From Gammaproteobacteria bacterium (GTDB taxonomy: Bacteria > Gemmatimonadota > Gemmatimonadetes > Longimicrobiales > Gaopeijiaceae): a stretch of 64,000 bases of DNA. Below, one piece after another: positions 12,242 through 63,266 of this stretch; the first letter of the stretch is position 1, and the number at the start of each line of letters is the position of its first letter. Location: NCBI GenBank assembly GCA_028821195.1, contig JAPPHB010000085.1:4580-68579 (forward strand), written 5' to 3'. Both the position numbers and the translations under genes were made by a program. Below the pieces are notes generated by a model. It saw only the letters and a program-made list of their open reading frames with translations. It made no database searches and was not told where the DNA came from.

Positions 12242-12295
12242 CAGGGTCTCTCTCGGTTTGGGGCGAGGGTCGCAATTTGCCGGTTGTTGAAACGG

Positions 12296-12312
12296 CCGGG
12301 CGTGCCGCCCGG
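12296..12312. terminator. Hairpin downstream of the PQQ dehydrogenase gene
   Basis: CCGGGCG (12296-12302), loop TGC, CGCCCGG (12306-12312): a 7-bp GC stem with a tight loop. It lies between the PQQ gene end and the VPS10-like gene start. It has no T run and could act as a weak terminator or attenuator. Confidence 0.4.
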
Positions 12313-12371
12313 ACATGCATCAGAATGCGAAACTAACGCATGTCGGGCGAGCCCTGCCGGTTCGCCGCGTG

Positions 12372-14582
12372 CTAGCGCGCGGCGCGCAGCTTGAAGACGT
12401 AGAGGGCGTTTCCGGATGTGGGATGGCGGATCTCCGGGGCCAGCAGGCGTGGGACGATGCGGGGGCTGCCGCCGCCGAGGCCGGTGCTGACGGCCAGGTA
12501 CTGCTCGCCCCTGATGGAGAACGTCACGGGGAAGCCCTGGACCGATGTCCCCAGCCGGGTTTCCCACAGCACGTCGCCGGTCGCCACGTCGTAGGCGCGG
12601 AAGTACCGGTCGACGTCGCCTGCGAACGCGAGACCACCACCGGTGGTGAGGGCTGCGGTGAGGAAGGAGGCGCGCTGTTCGACGCTCCACACCTCTTCGA
12701 GGGTGCGCACGTCGTAAGCAGCCAGCTTGCCCAGTCGGCCGTCGGTGCCGGGCATCTCGGCCCAGTCGCGGTCGGCGCCGGTGCCGCCCGAACCCACCTC
12801 CATGACGATCTCGCGGCCGGAGATCTCGAGACAGCTCTGCGAGAGCGGGGTGACGAGCAGGCTCGTCTCCGGGCTGTATGCCATCGCGTGCCAGTTGTGG
12901 CCGCCCGCCGTGCTGGGGCAGACCGAGATCCACTCGCCCACTTCGGCCTTCATGATGTCGGCGCGGTAGGTGACCTCGCCGGTTTCGGGGTCGATGTGAT
13001 CGAAGACGTTCTGGTACACGGTCTCGCCGTGCGCGAGGAATTCGCCCGTCTCGCGGTCCAGCTTCCAGAAGATGCCGTGCTTGCCGATGGCGAAGAGGAG
13101 CCTGCGGCCGTCGACATCCACGAGCATCTGCTCGAAGGACTCGTCCAGGTCGAGCGCCTCGCCCGGGACGTGCTGGCGATACCAGGCCAGGGAGCCGTCG
13201 GCTGCGTTCATGGCCAGCGTGGAACTGGTGTAGAGCGCGGGGTCGGTGGCGGAGAGGCCGCGGCTGGCGGGCACCCAGGGCTTGGCCTGGGCGGTGCCCC
13301 AGTAGATGAGCCCGAGCGCCGGGTCGTAGCTGCCGGTGGTCCACGCGTCCCCGCCGCCCCGCAGGTGGAGGGGAAGATCGCCCCAGGTGTCGCCCCCGGG
13401 TTCTCCCGGGCGCGCGATGGTGTAGGTGCGCCACACCTCCTCCCCGGTGTCGGCGTCGTGCGCGGTGATGAAGCAGCTGTCCTCGTAGAAGCGCCCGCAC
13501 CCGTTGATGCCGTTGACCACCAGCCCCTCCACCACCAGTGGGCCCGCGACGTTGGTGTAGCCCTTGCGCGGGTCGGCCACCTGGGTGTCCCACACGGTCT
13601 TGCCGGTGCGCGCGTCGAGGGCGACCACGCTGGCATCCCTCGTGGCCAGGAACACCTTGTCCTGATAGAGGGCCAGGTTGCGCATCTGGTTGAATCCGCC
13701 CGCGCGGATGTGGTCGGGGAACTGGCGGCGGTACTCCCAGAGCAGGTCGCCGGTGGCGGCGTCGAGCGCCTGGATGATGTTGCCCGGGTTGGCGAGGAAC
13801 ATGATCCCGTCGAGCACCAGCGGGGTGGGCTGGCTGGTCCCGTCGGCCATGGCCCACACCCAGGCCAGCTCGAGGTCGGCGACGTTCTCGCGCCGGATCT
13901 GGTCGAGCGGGCTGTACCCCCAGGCGTCGTAGGTGCGCCGGTACATGAGCCAGTCGGCCGGGTCGGGGTCGCGCAGCATGGCGTCGGTCACGGGGGTGAG
14001 CGGGCCGATGCCGCCCTCCACGGTGGTGAGGCCGGTGGCGCGTACCAGTTCCCCGGTGGGGATTGCGGGCCGGTTGGCGGCGGGAGCGGGTTCAGCGGCG
14101 GGAGCGGGCTCAGCGGCGGCAGACATCTCCCCCGCCAGCACATCCCCGATCGCCTGCTCGGACCCCAGCAAGCCCTGGTCGGCCGCCGCCCCGTTGGCCG
14201 AGAGCAGGAAGGCGGTCACAGCCAGGTACTGCGCCTCGGTCAGGGTGCCGGGCTCTTCCGGCGGCATGTCGCGCACTACCGCCAGCAGCTCGTGGAGCGG
14301 TGCCGTCCGCCAGGCGGCGAGGAAGTTCCGGCCCGCCAGCTCGGGCGCCTCGAAGTCGCCGCTCAGATCGGCGCGGTGGCATTCCGCGCACGAGCGATCG
14401 TAGACCCCGCGCCCGGCCTCGACCTGCTCGGGAACCAGTCGCACCGCCTCCTGCGCGGCGAGTGGGGCAGCCAAGGCGAGCGGAGTGGCCAGGGCGAGCG
14501 CAGCGAGCGGTGAGCTGACCGGGGCCAAAGTCGCCGCGCGACATGTCTCGCCCCGTGTAATACGCCCGAAACGCTCCATCAT
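12372..14582 (-). CDS. PQQ-dependent dehydrogenase with N-terminal cytochrome c domain
   Basis: A 736-residue periplasmic quinohaemoprotein. After a signal sequence (hydrophobic core about 27-43, ending LAAQ) comes a cytochrome c domain with CAECH (65-69) and probable distal Met106 (RDMPPEEPG). An Ala/Glu/Pro linker with AEPAPA repeats (about 150-170) leads to an eight-bladed PQQ propeller (about 200-736) with blade motifs such as [28 protein letters not shown] and [24 protein letters not shown] probably holds the catalytic acid. Most quinohaemoprotein alcohol dehydrogenases carry the cytochrome at the C-terminus, so the order here is less usual. Substrate is unknown (alcohol, aldehyde or sugar). 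The start is uncertain: ATG 14582, ATG 14579 or TTG 14528. It lies 57 nt after the DUF4159 gene. Confidence 0.88.
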
Positions 14583-23714: not shown

Positions 23715-23974
23715 CGGTCCTCCTCGGAGTGGTGTTCCACGGCCTGCCACCGGCCGGGGGACGGCCCGCCGCCCAGCGTGGGAAGCGCCCGTCCCCGGGG
23801 AAGGAGCAGGCTGCCGCCAAGGTAGGGTGGCGCAACGCGGCAACAAAGATTGCGTCAGCGGCGACACCCTAGATAAACTCGGCAGGACGGTTGCGTCGAT
23901 ACGGCAGAACGACGCCCGTGAATCTGAGTAATCGATGCTTGTTGATGCATCCTCATCTTGCGAAAGGAGGATCG

Positions 23975-24444
23975 ATGCCCGCGGTAACGATGACGGTGAA
24001 CGGGGTCTCGCGCTCGGCGGATGTCGAGGGCCGCACCCTCCTGGTCGACTTTCTGCGCGAGCAACTGGCGCTGACCGGGACTCACGTGGGGTGCGACACC
24101 AGCCAGTGCGGGGCCTGTGTCGTTCACATGAACGGCCAGTCCGTGAAGAGTTGTACCTGCCTCGCGGTGGACGCCGACGGGGCGGACGTGACCACGATCG
24201 AAGGGCTCGCGAACGGCGCGGACCTGCATCCGATGCAGGAGGCCTTCCGGGAGCACCACGGGCTGCAGTGCGGGTTCTGCACGCCCGGGATGGTCATGAG
24301 CGCCATCGACCTTGTGAACCGGAATCCGAGCCCGAGCGAGGGTGAGGTCCGGCACTGGCTCGACGGCAACTTCTGCCGGTGCACCGGCTACCACAACATC
24401 GTCAAGGCCGTCATGGCCGGCGCGGACGCGATGGGAGGTGGGTC

Positions 24445-24448
<4 letters not shown>
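23975..24448 (+). CDS. coxS: Cox-type [2Fe-2S] small subunit of a molybdenum hydroxylase
   Basis: ATG 23975 follows AAAGGAGG (23963-23970). The 157-residue subunit carries the two iron-sulfur clusters that move electrons from the molybdenum site to FAD. The plant-ferredoxin-type cluster uses Cys40, 45, 48 and 60 ([10 protein letters not shown]). The second uses Cys99, 102, 134 and 136 ([16 protein letters not shown]). The product has no signal peptide, so the enzyme is cytoplasmic. Its stop overlaps the large-subunit start by 4 nt. Confidence 0.95.
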
Positions 24449-26820
<2,372 letters not shown>

Positions 26821-26832
26821 CCGGAGGCGACA

Positions 26833-27627
26833 GTGGACGATTTCCAATATCACGCACCGTCTTCGGTTGACGGTGTCCTGAGCGCCCTCAGGGGCGCGGA
26901 CGACGGCAAGGTGCTGGCGGGAGGGATGAGCCTCGTGCCCGTCCTGAAGCTGGGCATGGCGGCGCCGAGCGACCTGGTGTCGCTCCGCAACGTGCCGGGA
27001 CTGAGCGACATCGAGGATCACGGGCACTGCCTCAAGATCGGGGCCTGCTGCACGCACGCGCAGGTCGCGGCTTCGAGCGTGGTGCAGGAGCGCATCCCGG
27101 CGCTGGCGGCGATGGCCGGCCGCATCGGCGATCCCCAGGTGCGCAACTGCGGCACCATCGGTGGCTCGGTGGCGCACAACGACCCGGCGGCGGATTATCC
27201 GGCGGCGTGCGTCGGGCTCGGAGCGACCATCATCACCGACCGGCGCAAGATCTCGTCGGACGACTTCTTCGGGTCGATGTTCGAGACCGCGCTCGAGGAG
27301 GATGAGCTGGTCACCGCCGTGTGCTTCCCCATCGTTGCGCGGGCCGCGTACGCCAAGTTCGAGAACCCGGCGTCGAAGTATGCGGTCGCGGGGGTCATGG
27401 TGGCCGAGAGTGACGACGGAGTGCGGGTCGCGGTGAGCGGCGCGGGCGCGGGCGTCTTCCGGGTGGCGGAGATGGAGGCCGCGCTGGCGGATGACTTCTC
27501 GGCCGATGCGGTGGCGGGGATCGGCGTGTCCTCGGACGGGCTCCTGTCCGACAACGTCGCAGGCGCCGAGTACCGGGCCCATCTGGTCACGGTGATGGCG
27601 AAGCGGGCCGTGGAGGCCTGCGGCTAG
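26833..27627 (+). CDS. coxM: Cox-type FAD-binding medium subunit
   Basis: The GTG start at 26833 follows GGAGG. The 264-residue subunit binds FAD and passes electrons on to a quinone or other acceptor. The two FAD motifs are AGGMSLVP (29-36) and NCGTIGGSVAHNDPAAD (105-121). A CO-dehydrogenase-type C-terminal domain follows (ASKYAVAGVMVAE). Third gene of the S-L-M set. Confidence 0.95.
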   Translation: MDDFQYHAPSSVDGVLSALRGADDGKVLAGGMSLVPVLKLGMAAPSDLVSLRNVPGLSDIEDHGHCLKIGACCTHAQVAASSVVQERIPALAAMAGRIGDPQVRNCGTIGGSVAHNDPAADYPAACVGLGATIITDRRKISSDDFFGSMFETALEEDELVTAVCFPIVARAAYAKFENPASKYAVAGVMVAESDDGVRVAVSGAGAGVFRVAEMEAALADDFSADAVAGIGVSSDGLLSDNVAGAEYRAHLVTVMAKRAVEACG

Positions 27628-27647
27628 CGGAGTCCGGCGAAGCTCGG

Positions 27648-28666
<1,019 letters not shown>

Positions 28667-28670
<4 letters not shown>

Positions 28671-30793: not shown

Positions 30794-32374
30794 TTGCGAG
30801 CGGGCTGCGGAGGGCTCCGAACAGCCCGCAGGGCGGCCTCGTTGCTGCTCGCGCTGGGCGCGGCCTGCGTCGGGCCGGGGCCGGACGTCATCCCCGTCGC
30901 GTTCGATCGGGTTCAGCCGGAGCTGTTCGAGACGCCCGGGGCCCAGACCAACTCCTGGGTCGACTACGACCTGGACGGTGATCTGGACCTGTTCGTGGGG
31001 ATGCGCTACACGCCGAATCGCCTCTATCGCAGCGAGGATGGGCACTTTGTGGACGTGGCGCCGGAGGTGGGGCTCGCCGACCTCGAGGACACTCGGGCCG
31101 GAGCGTGGGGTGACTATGACGGGGACGGGGATCCTGATCTCTACGTCGGGTATCCGGTTGCGGAGGGCACGCCGAACCGGCTCTATCGCAACGACGGGGG
31201 TCGTTTCGTGGACGTGGCGCCCGGTCTCGGCATGGACCTGTTGGGCACCACCCGCCAGCCGAGCTGGGTCGACTACGACGGGGACGGCGACCTCGACCTC
31301 TTCGTCGCGCTGCGCGATCAGCCCAACCGGATGTTTCGGAACGACGGGGCACCGGGCGAAGACGGGGCTCCGCGGGAAAGCGTCAGCAATTCACCGGCCG
31401 GAGACGCCCCCGCGTGGACCTTCACCGACGTGACCGCCGAGTCGGGCCTGGGCGACCCCCGCCGCACCGTCGGCGTCGCCTGGTTCGACTACGACCGGGA
31501 CGGCGATCTGGATGTGCACGTGTCCAACCAGAACGGCGACGAGGACGCCTTCTACCGCAACGAGGGCGACGGCACGTTTGTGGATGTCGCTCCCGCGCTT
31601 GGCATGAACCAGCCGGGCAGGGGAGCGGAATACGGCAGCGTGGCCGCGGCGGTGACCGATTTCGACAACGACGGCGACCTGGATCTGTTCGTTGCCACCT
31701 ACGGGCCGGACATCCTCTGGAGCAACAACGGCGACGGCACCTTCACGGACGTCACCGATCCGGCCACGCTGGGGGTCGACTACCATTCCACCTCGGCGGT
31801 CTGGGGAGACGTTGACCATAACGGCCTGCCCGACCTGGTGGTGACCTCCTACCTGTCCGGCATCGCCGCGGTCGAGGACCACCTGTTCATGAACGCCGGG
31901 GGCGGCCGCTTCCAGAACGCGCTCCCTGCGAATCTCCTCGAGCACGGCCCAAGCCACGGGGTGGCCTGGGCGGACTTCGACCGCGACGGTGATCTGGACC
32001 TGTCGATCGCCAACAACGACGAAGCCGGCGGCACCCACCACCTGTACCGCAACCTGCTCGCCCCCGACGCGGCGGCCCGCTCACTGCAGGTTGCGGCCGT
32101 TGACGCCACGGGACGCTCGGTGGTCCCCGGCGCGGAAGTCCAGCTCATCGACCACGACACCGGGGCGCTGTTGGGCACGCGCCTGATCGACACGGGAGGC
32201 GGTTACTGCTCGCAGGGCACCGCGCCGGCCCACTTCGGCCTTCCGCCGGGCGTCGAGCGCGTTGATGTCCGTGTGACCTTCATCGCCGGGGGAGAGCGGT
32301 CGATCGTGGTGCGGGAGGGCGTCCCTCCGGCGGACTACGACGGTCGCTGGCTGATCGTCCCCCGAGGCGGCTGA
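30794..32374 (+). CDS. FG-GAP/VCBS-repeat lipoprotein (CRTAC1/ASPIC-like)
   Basis: A 526-residue protein from a TTG at 30794, one base after mazF. The N-terminus has a lipobox-like LLALGAAC (Cys25). Seven or so repeats carry calcium loops of the D.D.DGD.D type: DYDLDGDLDLF, DYDGDGDPDLY, DYDGDGDLDLF, DYDRDGDLDVH, DFDNDGDLDLF, DVDHNGLPDL, DFDRDGDLDLS. The tail (SRLLGTRLIDTGGGYCSQGTAPAHFGLP-like pattern, about 440-500) is the ASPIC/UnbV domain. Such proteins are secreted or surface-bound and may bind ligands in calcium-dependent manner. The start is uncertain. Confidence 0.85.
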   Translation: MRAGCGGLRTARRAASLLLALGAACVGPGPDVIPVAFDRVQPELFETPGAQTNSWVDYDLDGDLDLFVGMRYTPNRLYRSEDGHFVDVAPEVGLADLEDTRAGAWGDYDGDGDPDLYVGYPVAEGTPNRLYRNDGGRFVDVAPGLGMDLLGTTRQPSWVDYDGDGDLDLFVALRDQPNRMFRNDGAPGEDGAPRESVSNSPAGDAPAWTFTDVTAESGLGDPRRTVGVAWFDYDRDGDLDVHVSNQNGDEDAFYRNEGDGTFVDVAPALGMNQPGRGAEYGSVAAAVTDFDNDGDLDLFVATYGPDILWSNNGDGTFTDVTDPATLGVDYHSTSAVWGDVDHNGLPDLVVTSYLSGIAAVEDHLFMNAGGGRFQNALPANLLEHGPSHGVAWADFDRDGDLDLSIANNDEAGGTHHLYRNLLAPDAAARSLQVAAVDATGRSVVPGAEVQLIDHDTGALLGTRLIDTGGGYCSQGTAPAHFGLPPGVERVDVRVTFIAGGERSIVVREGVPPADYDGRWLIVPRGG

Positions 32375-32437
32375 ACTACCGCCATCGCGCGGATGGGTCT
32401 CGCTCAAGATGAGGTACATCCTCTAGATTCGCCCGGC

Positions 32438-33634
32438 ATGGCCCCCAAGCCCATCAGCCCGCCCGGCAAGCTCGCCGAAAACGTCGCCCATTTCGTGCGC
32501 ATGCTGCGCGCGGCCGGCATGCCGGTGGGTCCGGGTCACACGCTCTCCGCAGCGCGTGCACTGGGAGCCGTCGACACCACCCGACGGAGCCAGTTCTACT
32601 GGGCGCTGCACGGAACCCTGGTATCGGCCCCCGAACAGCGCACCATCTTCGACAGCGCGTTCCGCCTCTTCTGGCGTGATCCGCTGGGGCGGGACGAGGC
32701 CCTGCAGGCGCTGCTCTCGACGTCGCGCATGGGTGAGGGCGAGCCGGGCGAGCGGGCTCCGGCCCGACTCTCGGCGGGAACGGCCCCGGGGTACACCGAG
32801 TCGACGCAGGCGCGGGAAGGCGAGGAGATATCCATGCGCATGGCCTTCTCACCCTCGGAGGTGCTGCGCACCAAGGACTTCGAGCAGATGACGCCGGAGG
32901 AGGTCCGGCAGGCCAGGGAGGCGCTCCGCCACCTGAAGCTGGATCTGCGCCCCGTCCTGACGCGCCGCTTCCGCCCGGATCCTCATGGGCCGGGGATCGA
33001 CGCGCGCCGCACCCTGCGGGCCAGCCTTCGTACCGGCGGATATCCCATGTCGCTGCGGCGCCGCTCACACGCCACGCGCCGCCCGACGCTTGTGGCCATC
33101 TGCGACATCTCGGGGTCGATGGAGACCTATTCGCGCATCCTGCTGCACTTCTTCCACACCCTGACCAACGCCGGCGAACGCATCCACACCTTCCTGTTCG
33201 GCACCCGACTCACCAACGTCACGCGCCTTCTGCGCGACCAGGATGTGGACCGGGCGATGGAGCGCGTGGGGCAGACGGTGCTCGACTGGTACGGCGGCAC
33301 GCGCATCGGCGCTGCGCTGCGGGCCTTCAACCTGCACTGGTCCCGGCGCCTGTTGGCGGAGGGGGCGGTGGTGCTGCTCGTGACCGACGGGCTCGACCGG
33401 GAGGGCGCCGGCGGGATCGCCTTCGAGGCGCGCAGGCTGCGCAAGTCGTGCCGGCGGCTGATCTGGTTGAACCCGCTGCTGCGCTACGAGAAGTTCGCGC
33501 CCCGGGCGGCGGGCATCCGGGCGCTGCTGCCGGAGGTGGACGAGCACCGGCCCGTGCACAATCTCGCGAGCGTGGAGGCTCTGGCGAGGGCATTGGGGCG
33601 GGCGGCGCCGGGCACGCGGGCGCGGGCATCCTGA
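32438..33634 (+). CDS. coxE: CoxE-like vWA-domain protein
   Basis: A 398-residue cytoplasmic protein; start at the ATG 32438 (a GTG-type extension to 32393 is possible). The vWA MIDAS motif DISGSM is at 223-228, followed by Thr in GGTRIGAAL and the acidic TDGLDREGAG. The N-terminal half (FVRMLRAAGMPVGPGHTLSAARAL) is typical of CoxE. In known systems CoxE partners the AAA ATPase CoxD. Here coxD is 3.8 kb upstream. The next gene, a TonB receptor, starts 3 nt after the stop. Confidence 0.92.
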   Translation: MAPKPISPPGKLAENVAHFVRMLRAAGMPVGPGHTLSAARALGAVDTTRRSQFYWALHGTLVSAPEQRTIFDSAFRLFWRDPLGRDEALQALLSTSRMGEGEPGERAPARLSAGTAPGYTESTQAREGEEISMRMAFSPSEVLRTKDFEQMTPEEVRQAREALRHLKLDLRPVLTRRFRPDPHGPGIDARRTLRASLRTGGYPMSLRRRSHATRRPTLVAICDISGSMETYSRILLHFFHTLTNAGERIHTFLFGTRLTNVTRLLRDQDVDRAMERVGQTVLDWYGGTRIGAALRAFNLHWSRRLLAEGAVVLLVTDGLDREGAGGIAFEARRLRKSCRRLIWLNPLLRYEKFAPRAAGIRALLPEVDEHRPVHNLASVEALARALGRAAPGTRARAS

Positions 33635-33637
33635 CGA

Positions 33638-36571
33638 GTGGAGCGGCCGCCTCCCTACGCGTCGCGGCGCGGTGTCGTGAACGAGCGCTTCCTCCCGGGC
33701 CCCCGGATTGCGCGACTGCTGGTCCTGTCCGTCCTCGCCGGTGCCCTGGCCGTGCCGGGGCGGGCGGCGGCGCAGAACGCGGGGAGCATTCTGGGCCGCG
33801 TCGTCGACGCATCCACCGGCGCGGTGCTCCAGGATGCCCTCCTGGCTGTGGAGGGCACTGAGCTTCGGACCTCCTCCGCGCCCGATGGCCGCTTCATCCT
33901 GGTGGCGGTGCCTTTCGGGGACCGCACGGTGACCGTCTCCCTGCTCGGCTACACCACGACAACGGTCGAGGGTGTGCGCGTGCGCCCCGGTCAGCCTGCC
34001 CGCATTCTCGTCGAGCTGGAGCCGGAGGCGCTGGAACTCGACGAAATCCGGGTCGAGGTGGAACGCGTCCGCCTGGTGGAGCCCGAGGTAAGCGCGACCC
34101 ACGAGTTGATCCAGGCCCGGGAGCTGCGCGAGCTGCCGATCGACGAAGTCTCGCAGGCCATCGAGCTGGCGCCGGGGGTCAGCGACGGCCACTTCCGCGG
34201 GGGGCGCATCGGACAGGAGGCCTACGTGGTCGACGGTCTGGAGTTCAAGAACCAGTTCGAAGCGTCGTCCCGGGGTCCCGCGCTGGAGCACCCCTCCGAC
34301 GCACTCGAAGAGATCGAAGTGGTGACCGGCGGGCTTGGAGCGCGCTTCGGATCGGCGCTTTCGGGGGTGGTGCACTACACGACCAGGCGTGGCGATCCGG
34401 AGCGATGGCGGGGCGCGGCGGCCATGCGCACCGACCACTGGGCGCCGGAACAAGTGTTTCGGGGCTTCACGGCGCTCACGGCATCCGGAGGCGGACCGGC
34501 GCCCGTGCTCGGGCGGGGCTCGGTGGTGTTCGCGAGCGTGCTCGCCCAGGGCATGCTGGATGCGGAGCCGCGTGCCCGCGGCCTGACCTGCCTCCGGCCC
34601 GGCGACGGCGATGCCGAGATGGACGCGCTCATCGGGCGGGTGACGGGGGATCCGGCCACCGCGGGGCTGACCTGCCCCTACACGGCGGCCGCCTTCCCCC
34701 ATCAGGCCGGGGACAAGCTTCTGGCCTTCGCGCGCGTTGACCGGCCGATCGCGGACGGGCTGGCCCTGACGACCACGCTCCTGCACAACCGGGTGCAGTC
34801 CGGGCTGTACACCTCCGAGTTCAAGTACAACCCCGAGTACCAACTGGGTCAGCGGGCGGACGGCACGCTCGCCACCGCATCGCTGGACTGGTCGCGGCAG
34901 GGGCTGGGCGGGGGCGCCCACGTGACGCTGCGGGGATCCGCCATGCGGCTGGACCGCTACCTGGGCGTGATTGATCCGGACTCCCGGGCCCGCCGCCGCA
35001 CCCTCGCGGGGTTCGGACCGGCCCGGCTGGCCTTTCTGAGCGAGGAGTTCGTGCGCAGCCCGGTGCAGGACCAGTTGAGGTCCGCGGCTCCGGTGCCCGG
35101 GTACCTTCCTCCCGGCGGCTCCGTCGGATCTCCTTTCGGGCCTGCCGCCGAGGGCATCTTCCACACCGAGGGGACGCCCGGCATCGCCAACTGGACGCGC
35201 ACCGGGTTCGTCGGCGCCGACCTCTTCGCCGAGCTGCTGTCGTCCGCGGGTCACGTCCTCAGCGCCGGAGGCGGGACCAAGCTCTATCGCGTCGAGTCCT
35301 ACGAGCGGGCGAGGAGCTTTCTGGCCGGATCGTCGCCCAACTACGCGCTTTTCTATCCGGGGTCGGTGAGCGCCTTCGTCGATGCGCGACTCGCGGCGGA
35401 GGACGAAATCGCGGTCACGCTCGGAGCGCGAATCGATGCCTTCCGTGCCGGTCTCGACTATCGGCACGACCGCGTGGACTTCCTCGCCCCGGGGACGCGC
35501 GCGGGATGGAAGTTCGGCGTCACGCCGCGCATAGGCGTCTCGGGCCCCGTGCCGGGCACGGTCGGACAGCTCGCCTTCCGCTTCAACTACAGCCAGGTCG
35601 CGCAGCCTCCGGATTTCCGCTTCTTCCTCGACACCACGCTCGGCGATTCGCTCAGAACCGACATCCGCCGCCAGGGGAATCCGGATCTGGCCTTCGAGAA
35701 GGGGACGAATCTCGAGTTCGGGCTCACGCGACAGATCGGCGAGAGCGCGGGCGTGGCCCTGGTCGGGTTTCGCAAGGAGTTGAACAATCTCGTGACCGGC
35801 AGCCTGCGTTTCGCCGGATTCGGGAAAGGCCAGTTCACGGGAGGAGATTTCGGGACGGTGCGGGGCGCGGAGATGTCGGTACGGGCCCGGTGGCCGTTTC
35901 TGCGGCTCCGTCTGGGCTACGCGCTGCAGAAGGCGGTGGGCGTGGTTTCGACGGCGCTCGACCCGGAGTTGGAGGATCCCGACGCGACCCGCGAGGAGTT
36001 CCCTCTGGCGTTCGACCGGCGCCACTCCGCGAACCTGGCCGTCTTCGCGGGCCGCGCCGCGGGGGAAGCCGATCGGCGCTGGGGCGTCGCCCTCGCCACG
36101 GCGGCGAAGAGCGGATACCCCCTGGACCGCCAGGTGCTCGCTCCGGAGCGCGAAACCGACTCCGGACGCCCGGGTCCCGCCCGCTTTCTGCCCTGGATCG
36201 TGCAACTCGACCTGCGGGCTACCTTGGAAGTCGGCAACCTGCCGGGTTGTTCGGACTGCCGCTGGCGCATCGTATTCGACGGCCGCAACCTCCTCGACCG
36301 CGCGAACGTTCTGGCGCTCCGCCGCGATACGGGCACGATTGCGCCCCCTGCGGCACAGGTCCTCGATCTGGCGCGGGGCGGGCCGGGCGGCGCCATCCCG
36401 CGGGAATCACCGCGCTACAGCGCGCTCGCAGATCTGGACGGCAACGGGCGCATCACCGATCTGGAATACCGAACCGTTCGGTTGGCGGCCGCGCTCGACC
36501 GCATGGATCCGTCGCTGTTCTTCGACGAGCCGCTGCAGTTGAGGCTGGGTGTCGAGGTCGGGTTCCGGTGA
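33638..36571 (+). CDS. TonB-dependent receptor with an EF-hand loop near the C-terminus
   Basis: 977 residues from GTG 33638 (GTG 33677 is an alternative with a shorter N-region). Signal helix ARLLVLSVLAGALAVPGRAAAQ; carboxypeptidase-regulatory domain (SILGRVVDASTGAVLQDALLAV, to ~130); plug with QEAYVVDGLEF, EEIEVVTGGLGARFGSALSGVVHY; then a barrel to VEVGFR. Near the end, DLDGNGRITDLE (932-943) is a canonical 12-residue EF-hand loop, unusual in such receptors. The gene follows coxE by 3 nt and overlaps the next lipoprotein gene by one base. It probably imports a substrate with help of the lipoproteins downstream. Confidence 0.9.
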   Translation: MERPPPYASRRGVVNERFLPGPRIARLLVLSVLAGALAVPGRAAAQNAGSILGRVVDASTGAVLQDALLAVEGTELRTSSAPDGRFILVAVPFGDRTVTVSLLGYTTTTVEGVRVRPGQPARILVELEPEALELDEIRVEVERVRLVEPEVSATHELIQARELRELPIDEVSQAIELAPGVSDGHFRGGRIGQEAYVVDGLEFKNQFEASSRGPALEHPSDALEEIEVVTGGLGARFGSALSGVVHYTTRRGDPERWRGAAAMRTDHWAPEQVFRGFTALTASGGGPAPVLGRGSVVFASVLAQGMLDAEPRARGLTCLRPGDGDAEMDALIGRVTGDPATAGLTCPYTAAAFPHQAGDKLLAFARVDRPIADGLALTTTLLHNRVQSGLYTSEFKYNPEYQLGQRADGTLATASLDWSRQGLGGGAHVTLRGSAMRLDRYLGVIDPDSRARRRTLAGFGPARLAFLSEEFVRSPVQDQLRSAAPVPGYLPPGGSVGSPFGPAAEGIFHTEGTPGIANWTRTGFVGADLFAELLSSAGHVLSAGGGTKLYRVESYERARSFLAGSSPNYALFYPGSVSAFVDARLAAEDEIAVTLGARIDAFRAGLDYRHDRVDFLAPGTRAGWKFGVTPRIGVSGPVPGTVGQLAFRFNYSQVAQPPDFRFFLDTTLGDSLRTDIRRQGNPDLAFEKGTNLEFGLTRQIGESAGVALVGFRKELNNLVTGSLRFAGFGKGQFTGGDFGTVRGAEMSVRARWPFLRLRLGYALQKAVGVVSTALDPELEDPDATREEFPLAFDRRHSANLAVFAGRAAGEADRRWGVALATAAKSGYPLDRQVLAPERETDSGRPGPARFLPWIVQLDLRATLEVGNLPGCSDCRWRIVFDGRNLLDRANVLALRRDTGTIAPPAAQVLDLARGGPGGAIPRESPRYSALADLDGNGRITDLEYRTVRLAAALDRMDPSLFFDEPLQLRLGVEVGFR
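36431..36466 (+). other. EF-hand loop codons within the TonB receptor gene
   Basis: These 12 codons encode DLDGNGRITDLE. Ligand positions 1 (Asp), 3 (Asp), 5 (Asn), 7 (backbone), 9 (Thr) and 12 (Glu) fit a calcium site, and Gly at 6 and Ile at 8 match the EF-hand/dockerin consensus. It lies close to the last strand of the barrel. Confidence 0.7.
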
Positions 36572-36661
36572 TGCGCCGGAGCTGGACTTCGGTGATGCGC
36601 GGGAGCTCGACTTCGACCCTGCTTCGGCGCTCGGTTTCGACGCGGCGGCGCGGCTCGATTT
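36566..36661 (+). repeat. 24-bp tandem repeat across a receptor stop and lipoprotein start
   Basis: Four units, 36566-36589, 36590-36613, 36614-36637 and 36638-36661, with a partial fifth to about 36685. Units 1 and 2 are nearly identical (CGGTGATGCGCCGGAGCTGG / CGGTGATGCGCGGGAGCTCG); later units are decayed. In the lipoprotein frame each unit encodes eight residues (SVMRRSWT, SVMRGSST, STLLRRSV, STRRRGSI, SAMRPGAW). The TGATG that ends the receptor and starts the next gene is inside the first unit and recurs in the second. Confidence 0.8.
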
Positions 36662-37827
36662 CGGCGATGCGCCCGGGCGCCTGGATGGCACTGGGGGCAC
36701 TCTGGGCTTTCGGCTGCCGGGAAGCCACGTCGCCGTTCGTGTCGGTGGACCGTCCGTCCATCGAAGTGACGGGGCCGCTCCAGCTCACCTTCTCCGGGCT
36801 CGACGAGCGTGCCCCGGTCTGGCTCGGGCCCGACTCGCTGGCCTACGCGGCCGAGGGCGTCGAGCCATTCGCGCAGAGCCCGGGCGTTCTCATGAAGATC
36901 GCCGCCACGGGCGGGGCCGCTGAGCCGCTGCTCCCGGCGCTCCAGTTCCCCGGTGGGGCGGCGCACTGGCTCGCGAGTCCGGCGCCCTCCCCCGATGGAG
37001 TCCGGGCGGCCTACGTGGAGATGTGGGCAGTGGCCGACGAAGATCTCTGTCCGGCGGCCATCGTCGTTTGCGATCCGTCCGGTGCTCCGCGGGTCGCCGC
37101 GCGCCTGGCCGAGATCCGGCTTCACCTCTTGGACCGGGAGGGAGGAGGCTCGCCGGCGCCCGGCCGCTCGCTCGCCGTATCGCTCGAGGGGCGGGAGTTC
37201 GTACCGCTGCGGGGCGACCCGTTCCTGCCCGGCTACTTCCGCATCCGCTACTACCCCTTCCAACGCCTGTTCCACGAGGAGAATCCGCCCCTCTTTCGTC
37301 CCAGCTGGGATCCGGGCGGGACTCGTGTCGCGTTCAGCGACGGGCTTCGGGTGCTGCTCTGGGACCTTGCCTCTTCCCACGCGGAAGCGGTGCCCGGCAC
37401 CGACGGCGGCGTGGCTCCGGCCTGGTCGCCGAATGGCGAGTGGATCGCGTTCACAAGGCTGGTACGGGGCGACTCGGTTGCCGCGAGCTGCACCCATTCC
37501 GGGTTTCTGGGGCCGGTCTGCCGGCAGGAGCGCGTGGACTACGAGGTGGCGGACCGCAGGATCGCGCTGGTGCGGCCCGATGGTTCGGAAACCCGTGAAC
37601 TGGGCCGGGGGGAGGAGGCCGCCTGGACGCCCGACTCGGGCCGGCTCGTTTTCCGGCGGGACGGACGCCTTTGGACCGTGCCCGTGGAAGGGGCGGCGGC
37701 GACTCCGATTCCCGACACCGAACGAGCCCGCGAGCCCGCGGTTTCGCCCGATGGAAGCCGGTTGGCGTATGTGCGGTTGCTGACCGGCGGAAAGCACGAC
37801 CTTTGGGTCGTCCCGTTCGAGGAATGA
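36571..37827 (+). CDS. TolB/PD40-type beta-propeller lipoprotein
   Basis: ATG 36571 overlaps the receptor stop by one base. The N-terminus is an octapeptide repeat of ~38 residues, so the working start may instead be ATG 36667, which yields MRPGAWMALGALWAFGC, a neat lipoprotein signal (Cys17). The mature part has WD40-like/PD40 blades: VWLGPDSLAYAA, ASPAPSPDGVRAAYVE, RPSWDPGGTRVAFSDG, APAWSPNGEWIAFTR, AAWTPDSGRLVFRRDG, PAVSPDGSRLAYVR. A propeller of six blades anchored in a membrane is likely. Located between the TonB receptor and another propeller lipoprotein. Confidence 0.82.
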   Translation: MRRSWTSVMRGSSTSTLLRRSVSTRRRGSISAMRPGAWMALGALWAFGCREATSPFVSVDRPSIEVTGPLQLTFSGLDERAPVWLGPDSLAYAAEGVEPFAQSPGVLMKIAATGGAAEPLLPALQFPGGAAHWLASPAPSPDGVRAAYVEMWAVADEDLCPAAIVVCDPSGAPRVAARLAEIRLHLLDREGGGSPAPGRSLAVSLEGREFVPLRGDPFLPGYFRIRYYPFQRLFHEENPPLFRPSWDPGGTRVAFSDGLRVLLWDLASSHAEAVPGTDGGVAPAWSPNGEWIAFTRLVRGDSVAASCTHSGFLGPVCRQERVDYEVADRRIALVRPDGSETRELGRGEEAAWTPDSGRLVFRRDGRLWTVPVEGAAATPIPDTERAREPAVSPDGSRLAYVRLLTGGKHDLWVVPFEE

Positions 37828-39020
37828 GGATCATGAAGGCCGGCTGGGGAAGGAGGATGGTAAACGCCGGTTGGCGGGGGATCGTGATCGGCGACCGAAG
37901 CGCGGGCATCGTGAGGCCCGGACGCGGAGCCGCGGCGGGTCGCGGGCTCGCGCTGATGCTGGCGGCCGTGCTCGCAGGCTGCGGCGACCCGGTCGTGATT
38001 CTCGGAGATGCGCCGGGCGTCATGCGCGTCGTGGCCGGGAAGCCGGAGGACCTCGAGCCCGCGGAGCGCGTGCCCGCCACCGACTTCGAATTATCCTCGC
38101 CGCGCGGGCTGGCGCTGGGGGCGGACGGCACGCTCTACATCGCCGACCGCCGGGCGGCCCGCCTGCTCGCCGTGCGTGCCAACGGCGATGTCGCCGTGGT
38201 GGCGGATCAGAGCGGGTGCTCGGGTCCCGCCTGCATGCGCCGTCCCGAAGGCCTCGCCCTCGCCCCGGACGGCACGCTGCTGGTGGCGGACGGCCAGGCG
38301 GGCAGAGTCTTCCGGGTGAACACGGGGACGGCTGGCGATGGACCGGTTGCCGTCGTGGCCGGCGACCCGGGAGGCGTGGCTCCGGCAAGCGGCCTCCCGG
38401 CCACCGAAGCCCGCTTCGGCGAACCCGCTGGCGTGGCCGTATCCGAAACCGGTGACGTGTTCGTGAGCGACTGGCCCGAGCACCGCGTGTGGCGCATCGC
38501 CCGGGACGGCACCCTTGCCCCGGCCGCGGGCAACGGACGAGTCGGCAGCTCGGGTGACGGCGGACCCGCCACCGAGGCCCGTCTGCGGGCCCCACGCGGG
38601 CTGGCGGTTGCGGATGGGCGTCTCTACATCGCCGACGCGGCCGACCAGCGCGTCCGCGTGGTCGACCTGGACACCGGCATCATCGAGCCGGTCGCCGGCT
38701 CCGGGACACAGGGGTTTTTGGGCGACGGCGGACCGGCCCGCCGCGCAAGGCTCGCCTTCCCCGAGGCCGTGGTGGCAGTCGACGGGGGGACGACGCTCTT
38801 CATCGCCGACCGCGGGAACCGCCGGGTGCGCGCCGTCGAGACCGCCACCGGAGTCATCCGCACGTTCGCCGGCAACGGCGCGTCCGACTACAATGGCTCC
38901 GGCCTGGAAGCGGGCGAGACCGCTCTGCCCGCTCCGGCGGGCCTTGCCTCCGACCTCGGCTTCCTCTTCATTGCCGACGACCAGCTCAACCTGGTGTGGC
39001 GGACCCCGATCCGGTTCTGA
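37824..39020 (+). CDS. NHL-repeat beta-propeller lipoprotein
   Basis: ATG 37824 overlaps the upstream stop (ATGA). The first ~40 residues have loose repeats (MKAGWG.., MVNAGWR..) before the lipobox LMLAAVLAGC (Cys53). NHL repeats follow: LSSPRGLALGADGTLYIADRRAARLLAV, RRPEGLALAPDGTLLVADGQAGRVFRV, GEPAGVAVSETGDVFVSDWPEHRVWRI, RAPRGLAVADGRLYIADAADQRVRVV and more (written here in parts of the repeat). NHL propellers bind protein, peptide or carbohydrate. Second of three propeller lipoproteins after the TonB receptor. Confidence 0.88.
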   Translation: MRIMKAGWGRRMVNAGWRGIVIGDRSAGIVRPGRGAAAGRGLALMLAAVLAGCGDPVVILGDAPGVMRVVAGKPEDLEPAERVPATDFELSSPRGLALGADGTLYIADRRAARLLAVRANGDVAVVADQSGCSGPACMRRPEGLALAPDGTLLVADGQAGRVFRVNTGTAGDGPVAVVAGDPGGVAPASGLPATEARFGEPAGVAVSETGDVFVSDWPEHRVWRIARDGTLAPAAGNGRVGSSGDGGPATEARLRAPRGLAVADGRLYIADAADQRVRVVDLDTGIIEPVAGSGTQGFLGDGGPARRARLAFPEAVVAVDGGTTLFIADRGNRRVRAVETATGVIRTFAGNGASDYNGSGLEAGETALPAPAGLASDLGFLFIADDQLNLVWRTPIRF

Positions 39021-39066
39021 GCCTCGCCGCGGCTCGCCGGGGAGGAATCATCCTCGACATGCACCG

Positions 39067-40311
39067 ATGGATCGATACATGAACCTTCCAGCATCGCACA
39101 CGCGCTCATCCGCCGGGGGATGCATCGCCGTCGCCTGGATGTTCGTGGGACTCGCGACGGGATGCGGCCCGGGAGACGCCGGTCCCGTGCCCATCGTCCA
39201 GGACAGCGCCGGTGTGGAGCTCGTGCGCCACGGGCCGCTGGCCGACTACGGCCGCCCTGTTTTTCCGGCGGAGTACATCCTGACCATCGGCGACATGGAA
39301 GGGCCTCCCGAGATGCTCTTCGCGGAAGTGGCCGGGGTCGAGTTGCTGGATGACGGGACGGTCGCCGTCCTCGACCGGGACGCGGCCGAGATCCGGCAGT
39401 TCTCGCCGGGCGGCTCCTTCCTGCGCCGCATCAGCCGCAGGGGCTCCGGACCGGGCGAGATCAGCGGCGATTTCACGGTCGGGCTGGTCGGCATCGGCGC
39501 AGGGCGCCTCCTGGTGCCCGACGCCATCAACCAGACCGTCACCATCTTCGACCGCGAAGGCGGCCTTCTCGAATCGCACCCGTGGGACATCCTGCAGTCG
39601 TACATGCCCGAATGGAGGGCCGCGAGCGACACGACGCTGGCCGTGCACCTGTGGTCGGCAACCGCCCCGTGGCACGTCCTGGCGCACAGGTCCGTTACCG
39701 GCGCACTGCTCGACACCCTGGCGGTATTCGCGGTCCGCCCGTCCAACCCCGTGGACCCGCGCTTTCCGGTCTGGGCCGACATGCTCGTCTGGTCCACGCG
39801 CGAGCCGGACCAGGCCGTTGCCGGCTGGATGTCCGAGCCCTGGGTCATCCTCTTCCGGCGGGGCACACCCGCGCGCAGGATCTCATGGGAGCGCGACGAG
39901 GAACTGCTGACTGAGGAACAGCACGATATCCTCCTCGGCATCATCGCCCGGAACATGGGTCCGGGCGAAATCCCTCCGGACCTGCGGACCCAGGTGCGCC
40001 TGCCCGAACGATTGCCGGCCATGGCGGACATTGAAACGAGCGCGGAACTCGTCCTTGTCCAGCGCGTCCGGTCGGTGGAGCGGCTGGACCAGCGCATCAC
40101 CTACGTCAACCGGGGACCGTCGGGCTTCGGCGGCCCGCTGTGGGACGTGTTCAGCTTCGAGGGCGACTACCTGGGGGTGCTGGATCTGGGCGCCCCGGCC
40201 GATGTCTTCGACATCCGGGGCGATACCATTCTGGGCGTGCGCGAGGACAGCCTCGGGGTTCAGCAGCCGTTCCTGGCCCGGATACCGGCCGAACTGCGGG
40301 AAGGGCGCTGA
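39067..40311 (+). CDS. Six-bladed beta-propeller lipoprotein
   Basis: Start at ATG 39067 or 39079; 414 residues. Lipobox VGLATGC (Cys33), then the family marker VQDSAGVELV and blades LLDDGTVAVLDRDAAEIRQFS, GRRGSGPGEISG-like loop (RRGSGPGE), GAGRLLVPDAINQTVTIFD and DIRGDTILGVREDSLGVQ. It belongs with the propellers at 18466 and 58857. It follows the NHL gene after 46 nt and ends directly against the convergent PIN-domain gene. Confidence 0.85.
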   Translation: MDRYMNLPASHTRSSAGGCIAVAWMFVGLATGCGPGDAGPVPIVQDSAGVELVRHGPLADYGRPVFPAEYILTIGDMEGPPEMLFAEVAGVELLDDGTVAVLDRDAAEIRQFSPGGSFLRRISRRGSGPGEISGDFTVGLVGIGAGRLLVPDAINQTVTIFDREGGLLESHPWDILQSYMPEWRAASDTTLAVHLWSATAPWHVLAHRSVTGALLDTLAVFAVRPSNPVDPRFPVWADMLVWSTREPDQAVAGWMSEPWVILFRRGTPARRISWERDEELLTEEQHDILLGIIARNMGPGEIPPDLRTQVRLPERLPAMADIETSAELVLVQRVRSVERLDQRITYVNRGPSGFGGPLWDVFSFEGDYLGVLDLGAPADVFDIRGDTILGVREDSLGVQQPFLARIPAELREGR

Positions 40312-40698
40312 TCAGAGCAGCCGAATCGGTCCCGGATAGCGCCCGATGACCGGATCCAGCGTAAGCAGCGTCAGCCCTTCGATCTGAGCCTGCGCCACCA
40401 GCATCCGGTCGAAGGGATCGCTGTTGATCGGGGGCAGCAGGTCTGCCGCTACGGCGTGGGAGCCCGAGACAGGCAGCTCCGTGTACCCGTTCTCGAGCAG
40501 ACCCCGTCGCAGCAGGCGCGGCTCGACGCGGTAGTCCTCGCGTCCCAGCCCGTTCTTGATCGTGACCTCCCAGAGGGATGCGGCGCTGAACGCGAGTTCC
40601 GCATCGGGATCCTCCAGAATCGTGCGCGCGACGCTCGGAAGCCGCTCCGGCATGCCCGCGGCATAGAGCAGCAGGTGGGTGTCGAGAAGAAACGTCAT
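40312..40698 (-). CDS. PIN-domain ribonuclease toxin (VapC-like)
   Basis: A 128-residue PIN protein. Acidic metal-binding residues: Asp6 (FLLDTHLLL), Glu44 (SLWEVTIK), Asp94/97 (NSDPFDRMLVAQAQ) and probably Asp115 (LLTLDP). It would cleave RNA with Mg2+. Its start overlaps the antitoxin stop by 4 nt (40695-40698). Confidence 0.93.
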   Translation of the reverse strand: MTFLLDTHLLLYAAGMPERLPSVARTILEDPDAELAFSAASLWEVTIKNGLGREDYRVEPRLLRRGLLENGYTELPVSGSHAVAADLLPPINSDPFDRMLVAQAQIEGLTLLTLDPVIGRYPGPIRLL

Positions 40699-40940
40699 GA
40701 TCTCCCCTCGAACGATGCCTCGATCTGCTTCCTGCCCATGCGGTCGAAATCGGGTGGAAGCGTGACGTGTCCCGCGAGAAAGCCCAGACGCCGTGTCGCG
40801 CCGTCCTCGTCGTCCTCCACCGCGGTGACCTTGACCAGCGGCTTGCCCGCGCGGGCGATGATGAACGGCTCTCCCTCGACGGCCTCCCGCACCAGGCGCG
40901 AGAGGTGCGTCTTGGCCTCATGCATGTTGTACGTGCGCAT
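40695..40940 (-). CDS. Phd/YefM-family antitoxin
   Basis: 81 residues. The Phd fold is clear from MRTYNMHEAKTHLSRLVREA and EGEPFIIARAGKPLVKVTAV. The N-terminus binds DNA and the C-terminus neutralises the PIN toxin. The dyad at 40966-40986, about 26 nt upstream, is the likely operator. Confidence 0.93.
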   Translation of the reverse strand: MRTYNMHEAKTHLSRLVREAVEGEPFIIARAGKPLVKVTAVEDDEDGATRRLGFLAGHVTLPPDFDRMGRKQIEASFEGRS

Positions 40941-40965
40941 GACGACGGCTCCCTGAAGGGGATGA

Positions 40966-40986
40966 ACTTAGGTCACTAAACTAAGT
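40966..40986. promoter_or_regulatory. Overlapping inverted repeats upstream of the Phd/PIN module
   Basis: ACTTAG (40966-40971) and CTAAGT (40981-40986) form a perfect 6-bp dyad with a 9-nt spacer. A second dyad, TTAG-GTCA-CTAA, overlaps it. The region is AT-rich and lies just before the antitoxin start. Autoregulation by Phd-type antitoxins at such repeats is well known. Confidence 0.6.
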
Positions 40987-40995
40987 CCGTTCCCC

Positions 40996-41715
40996 CTATC
41001 GCGCCAGCGGCGATGCCCCCGGATTGCGGATGACGTCGATGATCTGCGCCAGAATGGACAAGGCGATTTCCGCGGGAGTGCGGGCGCCGATTGAGAGCCC
41101 GACGGGGCTGTGGATTCGGTCTACCGCCTCTGCGCTGAACCCGGCCTCGATGAGGCGTTGCCGGCGAGTCCGGCGGGTCTTGCGCCCCCCGAGCGCGCCG
41201 ATGTAGAACGCGTCGCTGCCTAGGGCCGCGGTGAGGGCCGGGTCGTCGATCTTCGGGTCGTGCGCGAGCACGACCAGCGCGCTGCGCGCATCCAGCCCGA
41301 TCCGCTCGAGCGCCTGCTCCGGCCACGCCCGAACGAGCTCCGCGCCGGGGAAGCGCTCCCGGGTGGCGAATCCCTCGCGCGGGTCGATGATGGTGGCCGG
41401 CAGGCCGACCTCGGGGGAGGTGCGCGCCAGCACCTGGGCGATGTGCACGGCGCCCACCACCAGCAGCCTGCGTGGCACCGTGTAGGGGCGGAGGAGGACC
41501 GGGCCGTCGGCGGTCTCGGCCACCTGGGCTTCCTCGGCGCGCAGGGCCGCGTAGACCTGATCGGCCGAGACCCCCGCGATGGTTCGCGGTTCGCGCGCTC
41601 CGGCAGGCCCGATTTCCACCAGTTCCTGGGCGCCGTCGCCCAGCCGGGTCGCGAGGACGACGCTTCGCCCCGACCGCTGTGCTTCGAGAAGAGTGTCGAG
41701 GAGGGCGGGTCGCAC
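40996..41715 (-). CDS. XdhC/CoxF C-terminal (Rossmann) domain protein
   Basis: A 239-residue protein from GTG 41715. The Rossmann part starts RRLLVVGAVHIAQVLA (about 82-97), then ATIIDPREGFATRERFPGAEL, LVVLAHDPKIDDPALTAAL and YIGALGGRKTR, all typical of the XdhC C-terminal domain. XdhC-type factors bind molybdenum cofactor and help its sulfuration and insertion into molybdenum hydroxylases. It works together with the 113-residue N-terminal partner encoded 3 nt upstream. It could serve the Cox-like enzyme (13 kb away) and the IorAB-like enzyme at the right edge. Confidence 0.92.
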   Translation of the reverse strand: MRPALLDTLLEAQRSGRSVVLATRLGDGAQELVEIGPAGAREPRTIAGVSADQVYAALRAEEAQVAETADGPVLLRPYTVPRRLLVVGAVHIAQVLARTSPEVGLPATIIDPREGFATRERFPGAELVRAWPEQALERIGLDARSALVVLAHDPKIDDPALTAALGSDAFYIGALGGRKTRRTRRQRLIEAGFSAEAVDRIHSPVGLSIGARTPAEIALSILAQIIDVIRNPGASPLAR

Positions 41716-41718
41716 GGA

Positions 41719-42060
41719 TCAGCGCACCGCTTCGACGTAGATCTCCACCTCTCCCCCGCAGGCGAGCCCGACTTCCCACGCCATCTCGTTGGTGACGCCG
41801 AACTTGAGCCGCTGCGGATCGCCCGACTCCATGACTTCCATGGCGGCATGGATGACCGCCGATTCCACGCATCCGCCGGAGACGGATCCGGTGAAGTCCC
41901 CGCCCTCGGCCACCGCCATGTGGCTGCCCGCGCGCCGCGGGGCCGAACCCCAGGTGCGCGTGACCGTCGCCAGCGCAACCCGGCGCCCCTCGCCAAGCCA
42001 GTTGGCGGCCTGCTCGAGGACCGGATCCGCGCTCGTGTGCCCTGCTGCGGTTGGTGTCAT
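41719..42060 (-). CDS. XdhC/CoxI N-terminal domain protein
   Basis: ATG 42060 gives 113 residues that cover only the XdhC_CoxI domain: VALATVTRTWGSAPRRAGSHMAV, GSVSGGCVESAVIHAAMEVM, FGVTNEMAWEVGLACGGEVE. The GSVSGGCVE and GLACGG motifs are the usual cysteine loops of this family. In many bacteria it is fused to the Rossmann domain; here they are two genes with a 3-nt gap. Confidence 0.92.
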   Translation of the reverse strand: MTPTAAGHTSADPVLEQAANWLGEGRRVALATVTRTWGSAPRRAGSHMAVAEGGDFTGSVSGGCVESAVIHAAMEVMESGDPQRLKFGVTNEMAWEVGLACGGEVEIYVEAVR

Positions 42061-42167
42061 GGCCCCAAGTTGCCCCGAGCGCCCGCGCGCGCGCAACGTT
42101 TTCCTGCTCTGTGCTATCATATTTTTCGGGATATCTCGATTTCACATCCACAAGACCCAAGAAACAC

Positions 42168-58856: not shown

Positions 58857-59945
58857 CTACCCGCCGATCTCCAGTTTCCCGATGTCGTACCAGTCAACGG
58901 CCCGGTCCGGATAGCCGTCGGGATCGTCGGGGCCGACGGGCCTGTCTTTCAGGATGACAAGCGTCGAACCCCGCAGATCGAAACCGACCGCTCGGTCCCG
59001 CACCTGCACCACGCCGATGAGCCGGGTACCCGCGTAGATGTCCAGATGCGAGAACCCCTCGTGAAATCGACGCGTGAGGACCCAGAGTCGGTCGCGGTCG
59101 TCGAAGATCGGGCGTCCGACGTTGTAGCGGAGGGGCGTCGTCCGGTATCTTTCAACGGCGGCCTCGGAACCGAACATGCTCGTCCGCTGCTGCGCCGCGA
59201 ATGCGTCCACCTCCGCCTCGGTTCGAAACTCCTCGACGTACAGGGGAGCTTCAACCAGCGAGGCGGCATCGCCGTCGCGGTCCTCCAGGAGGATCATCAA
59301 TCCGCCGCACGCGGGGAAGACGATTCCACCCGTTGGCGTGGGCACACCCCGCGCGAGTTCGTCCACCGTCCCCCGGTCGCATCCGGTATCAATGAGATCA
59401 ATGGGAAACGCCCTCTCCCAGACAATCGTTTCCGAAGCGACGTCCAGCTCTGTGTGTAGAATCTGGAACCCGGCTGACAGGTCGCCGGAGCGACTCGCCA
59501 TTCCGTAGCCGAACAAGACGGAATCGAAGGACGCCCTCGCCCTGTACGGCCCAAGGAAGGGAAGGGTGACTTCAGACACCAGCGTGCCCGTCGTTTGGAA
59601 GATGGTCATGCGAGCCAACCCCCAGTCGATGGCGCCGATGGTACCGCTGGGCCCGCCGACGACCTCCATCAGACTGCGGAATTCGCCCGGACCCTCGCCG
59701 GGTCGTCCGAAGGCGCCCACTTCTTCCCCATCCCGACTCAGGCAGTGGATGCGCTCTTCGTAGGACTCGATCACGCACGCTGTGGTCTCGTCGGCAAGGG
59801 CGATCGAGTTGATGCCGGTGAGAGGGGCGCTGGAGGTGCCTACCGGGTCCATGAGAATCACGGCCGCCGGCTCCGGGGTTGACTCGCACGCGGTGCAAAG
59901 GACCACGACTGAAGCAAGCGGGACCATGAGCTGCTTCATTCTCAT
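58857..59945 (-). CDS. Six-bladed beta-propeller lipoprotein
   Basis: 362 residues from ATG 59945 (59939 possible). Lipobox VVVLCTAC (Cys20). Blades include SIALADETTACVIESYEERIHCLS, GAFGRPGEGPGEFRSL (family RPGEGPGEF loop), IDWGLARMTIFQTTG and IFDDRDRLWVLTRRFHEG. Relative of the lipoproteins at 18466 and 39067. It lies between the second VPS10-like gene (84-nt gap) and the nitrilase gene. Confidence 0.85.
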   Translation of the reverse strand: MRMKQLMVPLASVVVLCTACESTPEPAAVILMDPVGTSSAPLTGINSIALADETTACVIESYEERIHCLSRDGEEVGAFGRPGEGPGEFRSLMEVVGGPSGTIGAIDWGLARMTIFQTTGTLVSEVTLPFLGPYRARASFDSVLFGYGMASRSGDLSAGFQILHTELDVASETIVWERAFPIDLIDTGCDRGTVDELARGVPTPTGGIVFPACGGLMILLEDRDGDAASLVEAPLYVEEFRTEAEVDAFAAQQRTSMFGSEAAVERYRTTPLRYNVGRPIFDDRDRLWVLTRRFHEGFSHLDIYAGTRLIGVVQVRDRAVGFDLRGSTLVILKDRPVGPDDPDGYPDRAVDWYDIGKLEIGG

Positions 59946-63128: not shown

Positions 63129-63266
63129 GCTGCCTCCGAATCCATGGTCCGGCCCCTCGGTTGTGGGCCGGCTTTCTACCGTAGGTGGGCGCCTATGGCC
63201 CAGCAACCGGTGACTCGGTGGGGTTCCTGGAGGCCGGTTCGGTTGGACGGGGCGTTGGCGCGCTCT

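Follow-up and report, generated by a model that had tools for sequence, protein, structure and literature searches.

Two outer-membrane uptake systems of Bacteroides pair a receptor with a propeller lipoprotein: BtuG caps BtuB in vitamin B12 uptake complexes (PMC10404256, PMC6143338), and XusB, a propeller lipoprotein, sits as a lid on XusA in xenosiderophore uptake (PMC13142918; PDB 9GBC). Those receptors with a propeller lipoprotein lid whose structures we found described in the literature come from Bacteroides, and a search of the PMC literature for a TonB receptor with a propeller or NHL lipoprotein in Gemmatimonadota found no paper. The glycan and peptide transporters SusCD and RagAB follow a similar two-component logic of receptor plus surface lipoprotein.

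The locus described here lies in a 64-kb window (the whole stretch of DNA that was analysed), part of a 4.2 Mb genome, and the closest named relatives of the window are Gemmatimonadota metagenome-assembled genomes (MAGs), among them ‘BD2-11 clade’ and Gemmatimonadetes bins, as well as several ‘Gammaproteobacteria’ MAGs whose label is evidently wrong. An earlier note on this DNA had described coxE, a TonB receptor and three propeller lipoproteins as a single coupled array, and the ORF coordinates (Table 1) confirm all five genes, their order, their common + strand and each junction: a 3-nt gap before the receptor ORF, which opens on GTG, a 1-nt overlap in which the PD40 ATG lies on the receptor stop, a 4-nt overlap of the NHL ATG with the PD40 stop, and a 46-nt gap from the NHL stop to the ATG of the six-bladed gene. 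The coxE start in Table 1 is supported because, in congeners, a TGA interrupts the reading frame upstream of M16. For the receptor, most congeners keep GTG 33677, which stands immediately before the signal peptide; the true coxE-receptor gap may therefore be 42 nt and not 3. A fourth propeller-type gene (FG-GAP/UnbV-like), just upstream of coxE, had been left off the earlier list. A promoter and terminator scan of positions 32000-41000 returned nothing above shuffled sequences.

Table 1. Features of the array and of the surrounding cox locus, in window positions
Feature	Position	Strand	Evidence and remarks
coxS-coxL-coxM-coxD	23891..28670	+	upstream of FG-GAP gene and coxE
FG-GAP/UnbV-like propeller protein	30794..32374	+	just upstream of coxE; neighbour, genus-specific location
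coxE (VWA, CoxE-like)	32438..33634	+	Pfam VWA_CoxE 4e-64; neighbour, cox locus member
TonB-dependent receptor	33638..36571	+	Pfam CarboxypepD_reg + plug + barrel; probable true start GTG 33677
PD40 (WD40-like, TolB-like) propeller lipoprotein	36571..37827	+	Pfam PD40 6e-17; 418 aa
NHL propeller lipoprotein	37824..39020	+	Pfam NHL 8e-26; LAGC lipobox
Six-bladed (DUF5128-like) lipoprotein	39067..40311	+	Pfam DUF5128 below cutoff; neighbour
xdhC-like maturation genes, two ORFs	40996-41715 and 41719-42063	-	part of surrounding cox locus

Propeller proteins are common in the window: a sortilin/BNR-repeat protein (60030-63206) lies beside another six-bladed lipoprotein (58857-59945), and a second one (9134-12316) beside a PQQ-type propeller/cytochrome c protein (12372-14582), both pairs on the - strand. 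Between the FG-GAP gene and coxE, the congener G005 carries an outer-membrane barrel gene (L148:8769-9749), as apparently do G003, G006 and G009, and in the window positions 32375-32437 hold a scar of the barrel C-terminus (SLKMRYIL stop) that overlaps the coxE start.

Comparison between genomes shows that the natural unit is three genes, receptor, PD40 and NHL, whose adjacency is far beyond chance. With presence thresholds of E 1e-60 or 1e-100, which define families and not all paralogues, the receptor family occurs in 18 of 154 genomes of the order; the PD40 family accompanies it in 17 of these 18 and the NHL family in 16, and neither was found in any of the 136 receptor-less genomes (Fisher p about 1e-20 for receptor-partner co-occurrence, phylogeny ignored). 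Most of the surveyed genomes are MAGs, and some gaps are explained by contig ends. The genomes with an incomplete triad are G068, where the contig ends inside NHL, G046, where NHL was not found though receptor and PD40 are present, and G052, where a deletion fuses the receptor to NHL and removes PD40. Among 78 related genomes searched, the receptor is present in 8 of 10 congeners at 89-97% identity. A second family (f2) has it in several genera, with about 49-58% identity, and no full-length match came from other genera of the window's own family. Gene order is the same in the f2 genera and in further Gemmatimonadota MAGs, with PD40 sometimes doubled in f2. The f2 flanks consist of an NYN gene/3-methyladenine glycosylase plus etfBA, or of quite different surroundings (names from our own reading of the sequences), and coxE, the FG-GAP gene and the six-bladed gene occur in none of these loci. 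In the deepest branch (L066, L067, L072) NHL reads divergently from the receptor, and genes resembling sensor histidine kinases come after it; PD40 could be checked in L066, where a weak match at a distance of 6 kb is the sole candidate. The co-occurrence elsewhere that the earlier note had made the check on its four-gene grouping thus holds for the receptor, PD40 and NHL, and fails for the six-bladed lipoprotein.

The junctions are conserved as well. Of the 15 loci examined, 12 have a PD40 start that overlaps the receptor stop by 1 or 4 nt, in addition to the 1-nt overlap in the window; f2-type loci show 1 nt (TGATG) in eight cases and 4 nt in three, and an overlap of 1 or 4 nt is also seen in the most diverged congener. 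Seven of the loci examined have overlaps of 4-25 nt between PD40 and NHL. The gene trees are congruent (receptor-PD40 r = 0.77, receptor-NHL r = 0.91, Mantel p 0.0002), a congruence that is partly shared species history. Overlaps and congruent trees together look like the marks of an operon kept by selection, and suggest that translation of the genes is coupled.

At L048/L070 a deletion has joined a truncated receptor to the NHL signal peptide, and PD40 is lost, an independent decay of the module. Three far-apart sites of one complete-chromosome MAG (CP070722; L057, L068, L071) hold an intact receptor and two partial copies (residues 6-611 and 618-976), pointing to rearrangement or misassembly.

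The receptor consists of an N-terminal carboxypeptidase-like domain, then a plug, then a barrel (Pfam: CarboxypepD_reg 1.6e-14; Plug 9e-5, just below cutoff; barrel E 1.6e-16). With plug, barrel and a visible signal peptide it has the features by which TonB-dependent receptors are recognised, its use of TonB energy being a prediction from these. Within the family the plug has a conserved GVS(D/G)GHFRGGR-type segment, the barrel carries the segment QPPDFRFFLDTT.GDSLRT, and there is a near-invariant CxxC. Just before the last strand lies an EF-hand-like loop, DLDGNGRITDLE, whose D-x-[DN]-...-E pattern is present in 11/11 aligned family members and which, from the usual strand order, should be extracellular. 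The best PDB sequence match is XusA (9gbc, E 4e-10); we regard it as generic because it is confined to the N-terminal domain and plug (profile positions 28-255 only).

As in lid-type systems, the propeller lipoproteins here are encoded beside the receptor and co-inherited with it. With BtuB-BtuG the triad shares the pairing of a TonB-dependent transporter with a propeller lipoprotein, and further lipoproteins may sit in a Btu locus too; BtuG, however, is seven-bladed, with one propeller per receptor, and belongs to Bacteroidota, whereas here there are a PD40 protein and an NHL protein modelled with six blades, and the receptor family is found only in Gemmatimonadota. With XusA-XusB it shares a receptor with an N-terminal carboxypeptidase-like domain and a propeller lipoprotein partner, but XusB is a DUF4374 protein, and neither PD40, NHL nor the six-bladed protein matched DUF4374 at E 0.01; the inner-membrane protein XusC of the Xus system has no conserved counterpart beside the triad. 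The receptor matched no SusC/RagA NCBIfam model at E 0.01, and Pfam gave no SusD match among the array proteins. As DUF4374 and SusC/SusD signatures are absent and the XusA match is limited to the N-terminal part, the triad would work like BtuBG or XusAB without being a member of either system.

Distant relatives of the receptor were also found in other phyla, and no PD40 or NHL profile lies near any of 55 such loci. Those at L073-L127 (e.g. L108:12707-15943, L100, L088, L099) are mostly from FCB lineages (KSB1, Ignavibacteria, Calditrichota, Rhodothermales) and form a conserved pair of their own with a secreted protein, encoded directly 3' of the receptor in most sufficiently long loci, mostly about 1,050-1,220 aa in length, with no clear Pfam family and the C-terminus ...YGVYIYHVEAPGIGEKIGKFAVIK. 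In the loci inspected a PorV/PorQ-like protein follows, amid genes resembling LacI regulators, ABC sugar transporters and glycoside hydrolases.

The two lipoproteins of the triad are predicted to be propellers, and their lipobox cysteine is invariant or near-invariant in both families (Cys49 in PD40). The PD40 model (pLDDT 82) is a TolB-like propeller into which a long beta-hairpin is inserted near residues 246-288, and its best structural neighbours are TolB (Z about 21). The NHL model (pLDDT 90) is a six-bladed propeller whose structural neighbours are teneurin-like and NHLRC2 NHL domains, the PknD sensor domain also being listed. BtuG and XusB do not appear among the structural matches listed for the two models, which may nonetheless resemble them.

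Taken together, we think it probable that receptor, PD40 and NHL form a TonB-dependent uptake module in which the propeller lipoproteins capture the ligand, much as in BtuBG and XusAB; to this extent the capture-and-import module of the earlier note stands, shorn of coxE and the six-bladed gene, which the f2 loci and G005 (below) show not to be members. The receptor would import the ligand across the outer membrane with TonB energy, and PD40 and NHL, anchored in that membrane, would capture it and either hand it to the receptor or cap the receptor. PD40, the most constant partner, is probably the lid, and NHL probably a second capture or accessory protein. On this view the lipoproteins would be exposed at the surface and in a physical complex with the receptor. 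The surroundings of the triad give no clue to the ligand, as they contain no conserved inner-membrane transporter, binding protein or metabolic enzyme. More tentatively, the triad may be a Gemmatimonadota-specific importer, in which one TonB receptor, with a calcium-binding EF-hand in its last long loop (probably extracellular), works with two propeller lipoproteins of unrelated families for a ligand outside the described systems.

The structural neighbours also fit a different function, in which the triad is real and its propellers act in envelope assembly, signalling or adhesion, in a TolB-like or teneurin/PknD-like manner. The sensor-histidine-kinase-like genes adjoining NHL in the deepest branch would agree with this. 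Strict co-occurrence and overlap with a TonB receptor speak against it, and from one context to the next the triad has no recurrent third neighbour such as a Pal or TolA partner. We consider this function unlikely and ligand uptake the better account of the three genes.

The earlier note had gone further, tying the receptor to coxE and suggesting that the array could feed an oxidation pathway. On such a reading coxE, the receptor and three propellers would be one module that brings in a substrate or cofactor used by the Mo-hydroxylase (cox) system next door. Spacing in the window is indeed tight, the arrangement coxS-L-M-D..FG-GAP..coxE-triad-six is kept, within contig reach, in the congeners examined except G005, and in a single case (L057) Mo-hydroxylase genes, encoded on the opposite strand, lie about 3 kb upstream of the receptor. 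However, adjacency of coxE and the six-bladed gene to the triad is confined to the genus, and no triad locus outside it contains coxE. Conversely, in other genera of its own family G016 and the partial contig G020 (L150, L151) have coxS-L-M-D-E without the triad. In G005, cox, FG-GAP, coxE, six-bladed gene, vapCB and xdhC are all kept and the triad alone is gone: between coxE and the six-bladed gene only the receptor signal-peptide start remains, joined to the last NHL codons, and since this scar holds both ends of the triad, one deletion event removed all three genes. Absent from f2 triads and retained in G005, coxE and the six-bladed lipoprotein are therefore neighbours and not members; the latter also belongs to a set of 16 matches at E 1e-8 scattered through the genome, itself and 15 paralogues. 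The triad has been inherited and lost separately from the CO-dehydrogenase-like genes beside it, and its distribution lends no support to a functional tie with them, which makes a single module serving the cox enzyme quite improbable and leaves the links to coxE and to oxidation unsupported. We accordingly reject the triad as part of the cox operon: it is missing beside cox in G016, G020 and G005 and present without cox in f2. The uptake module would instead be a heritable unit of its own, which became embedded in the cox locus in the ancestor of the genus.

The cox genes themselves (coxS-L-M-D, coxE and xdhC) belong with coxMSLDEF-type (Mo-hydroxylase) operons, of which the triad is independent. 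Form I (true) CO dehydrogenase was rejected for the enzyme, as the CoxL active-site loop reads ALRGAGR (form II-like), not the form I CSFR, and CoxL scores 660 bits against TIGR02416, below the 991 cutoff; for the same reasons its substrate may be other than CO. A MoxR-VWA-propeller ternary system was likewise set aside, as none of the array propellers in the window match a bpX family and the sole bpMoxR match, a secondary one, is a separate MoxR gene at 42180.

Gemmatimonadota are rich in TonB receptors, PD40, NHL and six-bladed proteins, and a run of such common families could arise by chance. This does hold for the six-bladed gene with its 15 paralogues, and the FG-GAP gene is probably a similar case; extended to the triad it is very improbable, for PD40 and NHL are confined to receptor-bearing genomes, the overlaps persist at about 50% divergence and neither profile lies near the distant receptors of other phyla, and the 154-genome profile rules out chance juxtaposition of the three. 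Scarcely credible is a receptor/protease-type system for ribosomal peptides with PD40 as the remnant of a lasso-peptide isopeptidase, which was rejected since its one support, a weak NCBIfam match to Atxe2 isopeptidase (E 1e-7; 31 bits, where the cutoff is 400), extends over no more than a brief run of PD40 repeats and Pfam finds no hydrolase domain, with its catalytic Ser/Asp/His, in the 418 aa.

A plausible ‘pathway’ can be read from the neighbours of this receptor, and comparison shows them to be separable. If the uptake reading is true, the receptor-PD40-NHL operon would carry the lid principle into a phylum that is mostly uncultured and add two propeller families to it; the operon would also give a function to abundant, unexplained lipoproteins and name the exact partners for joint expression.
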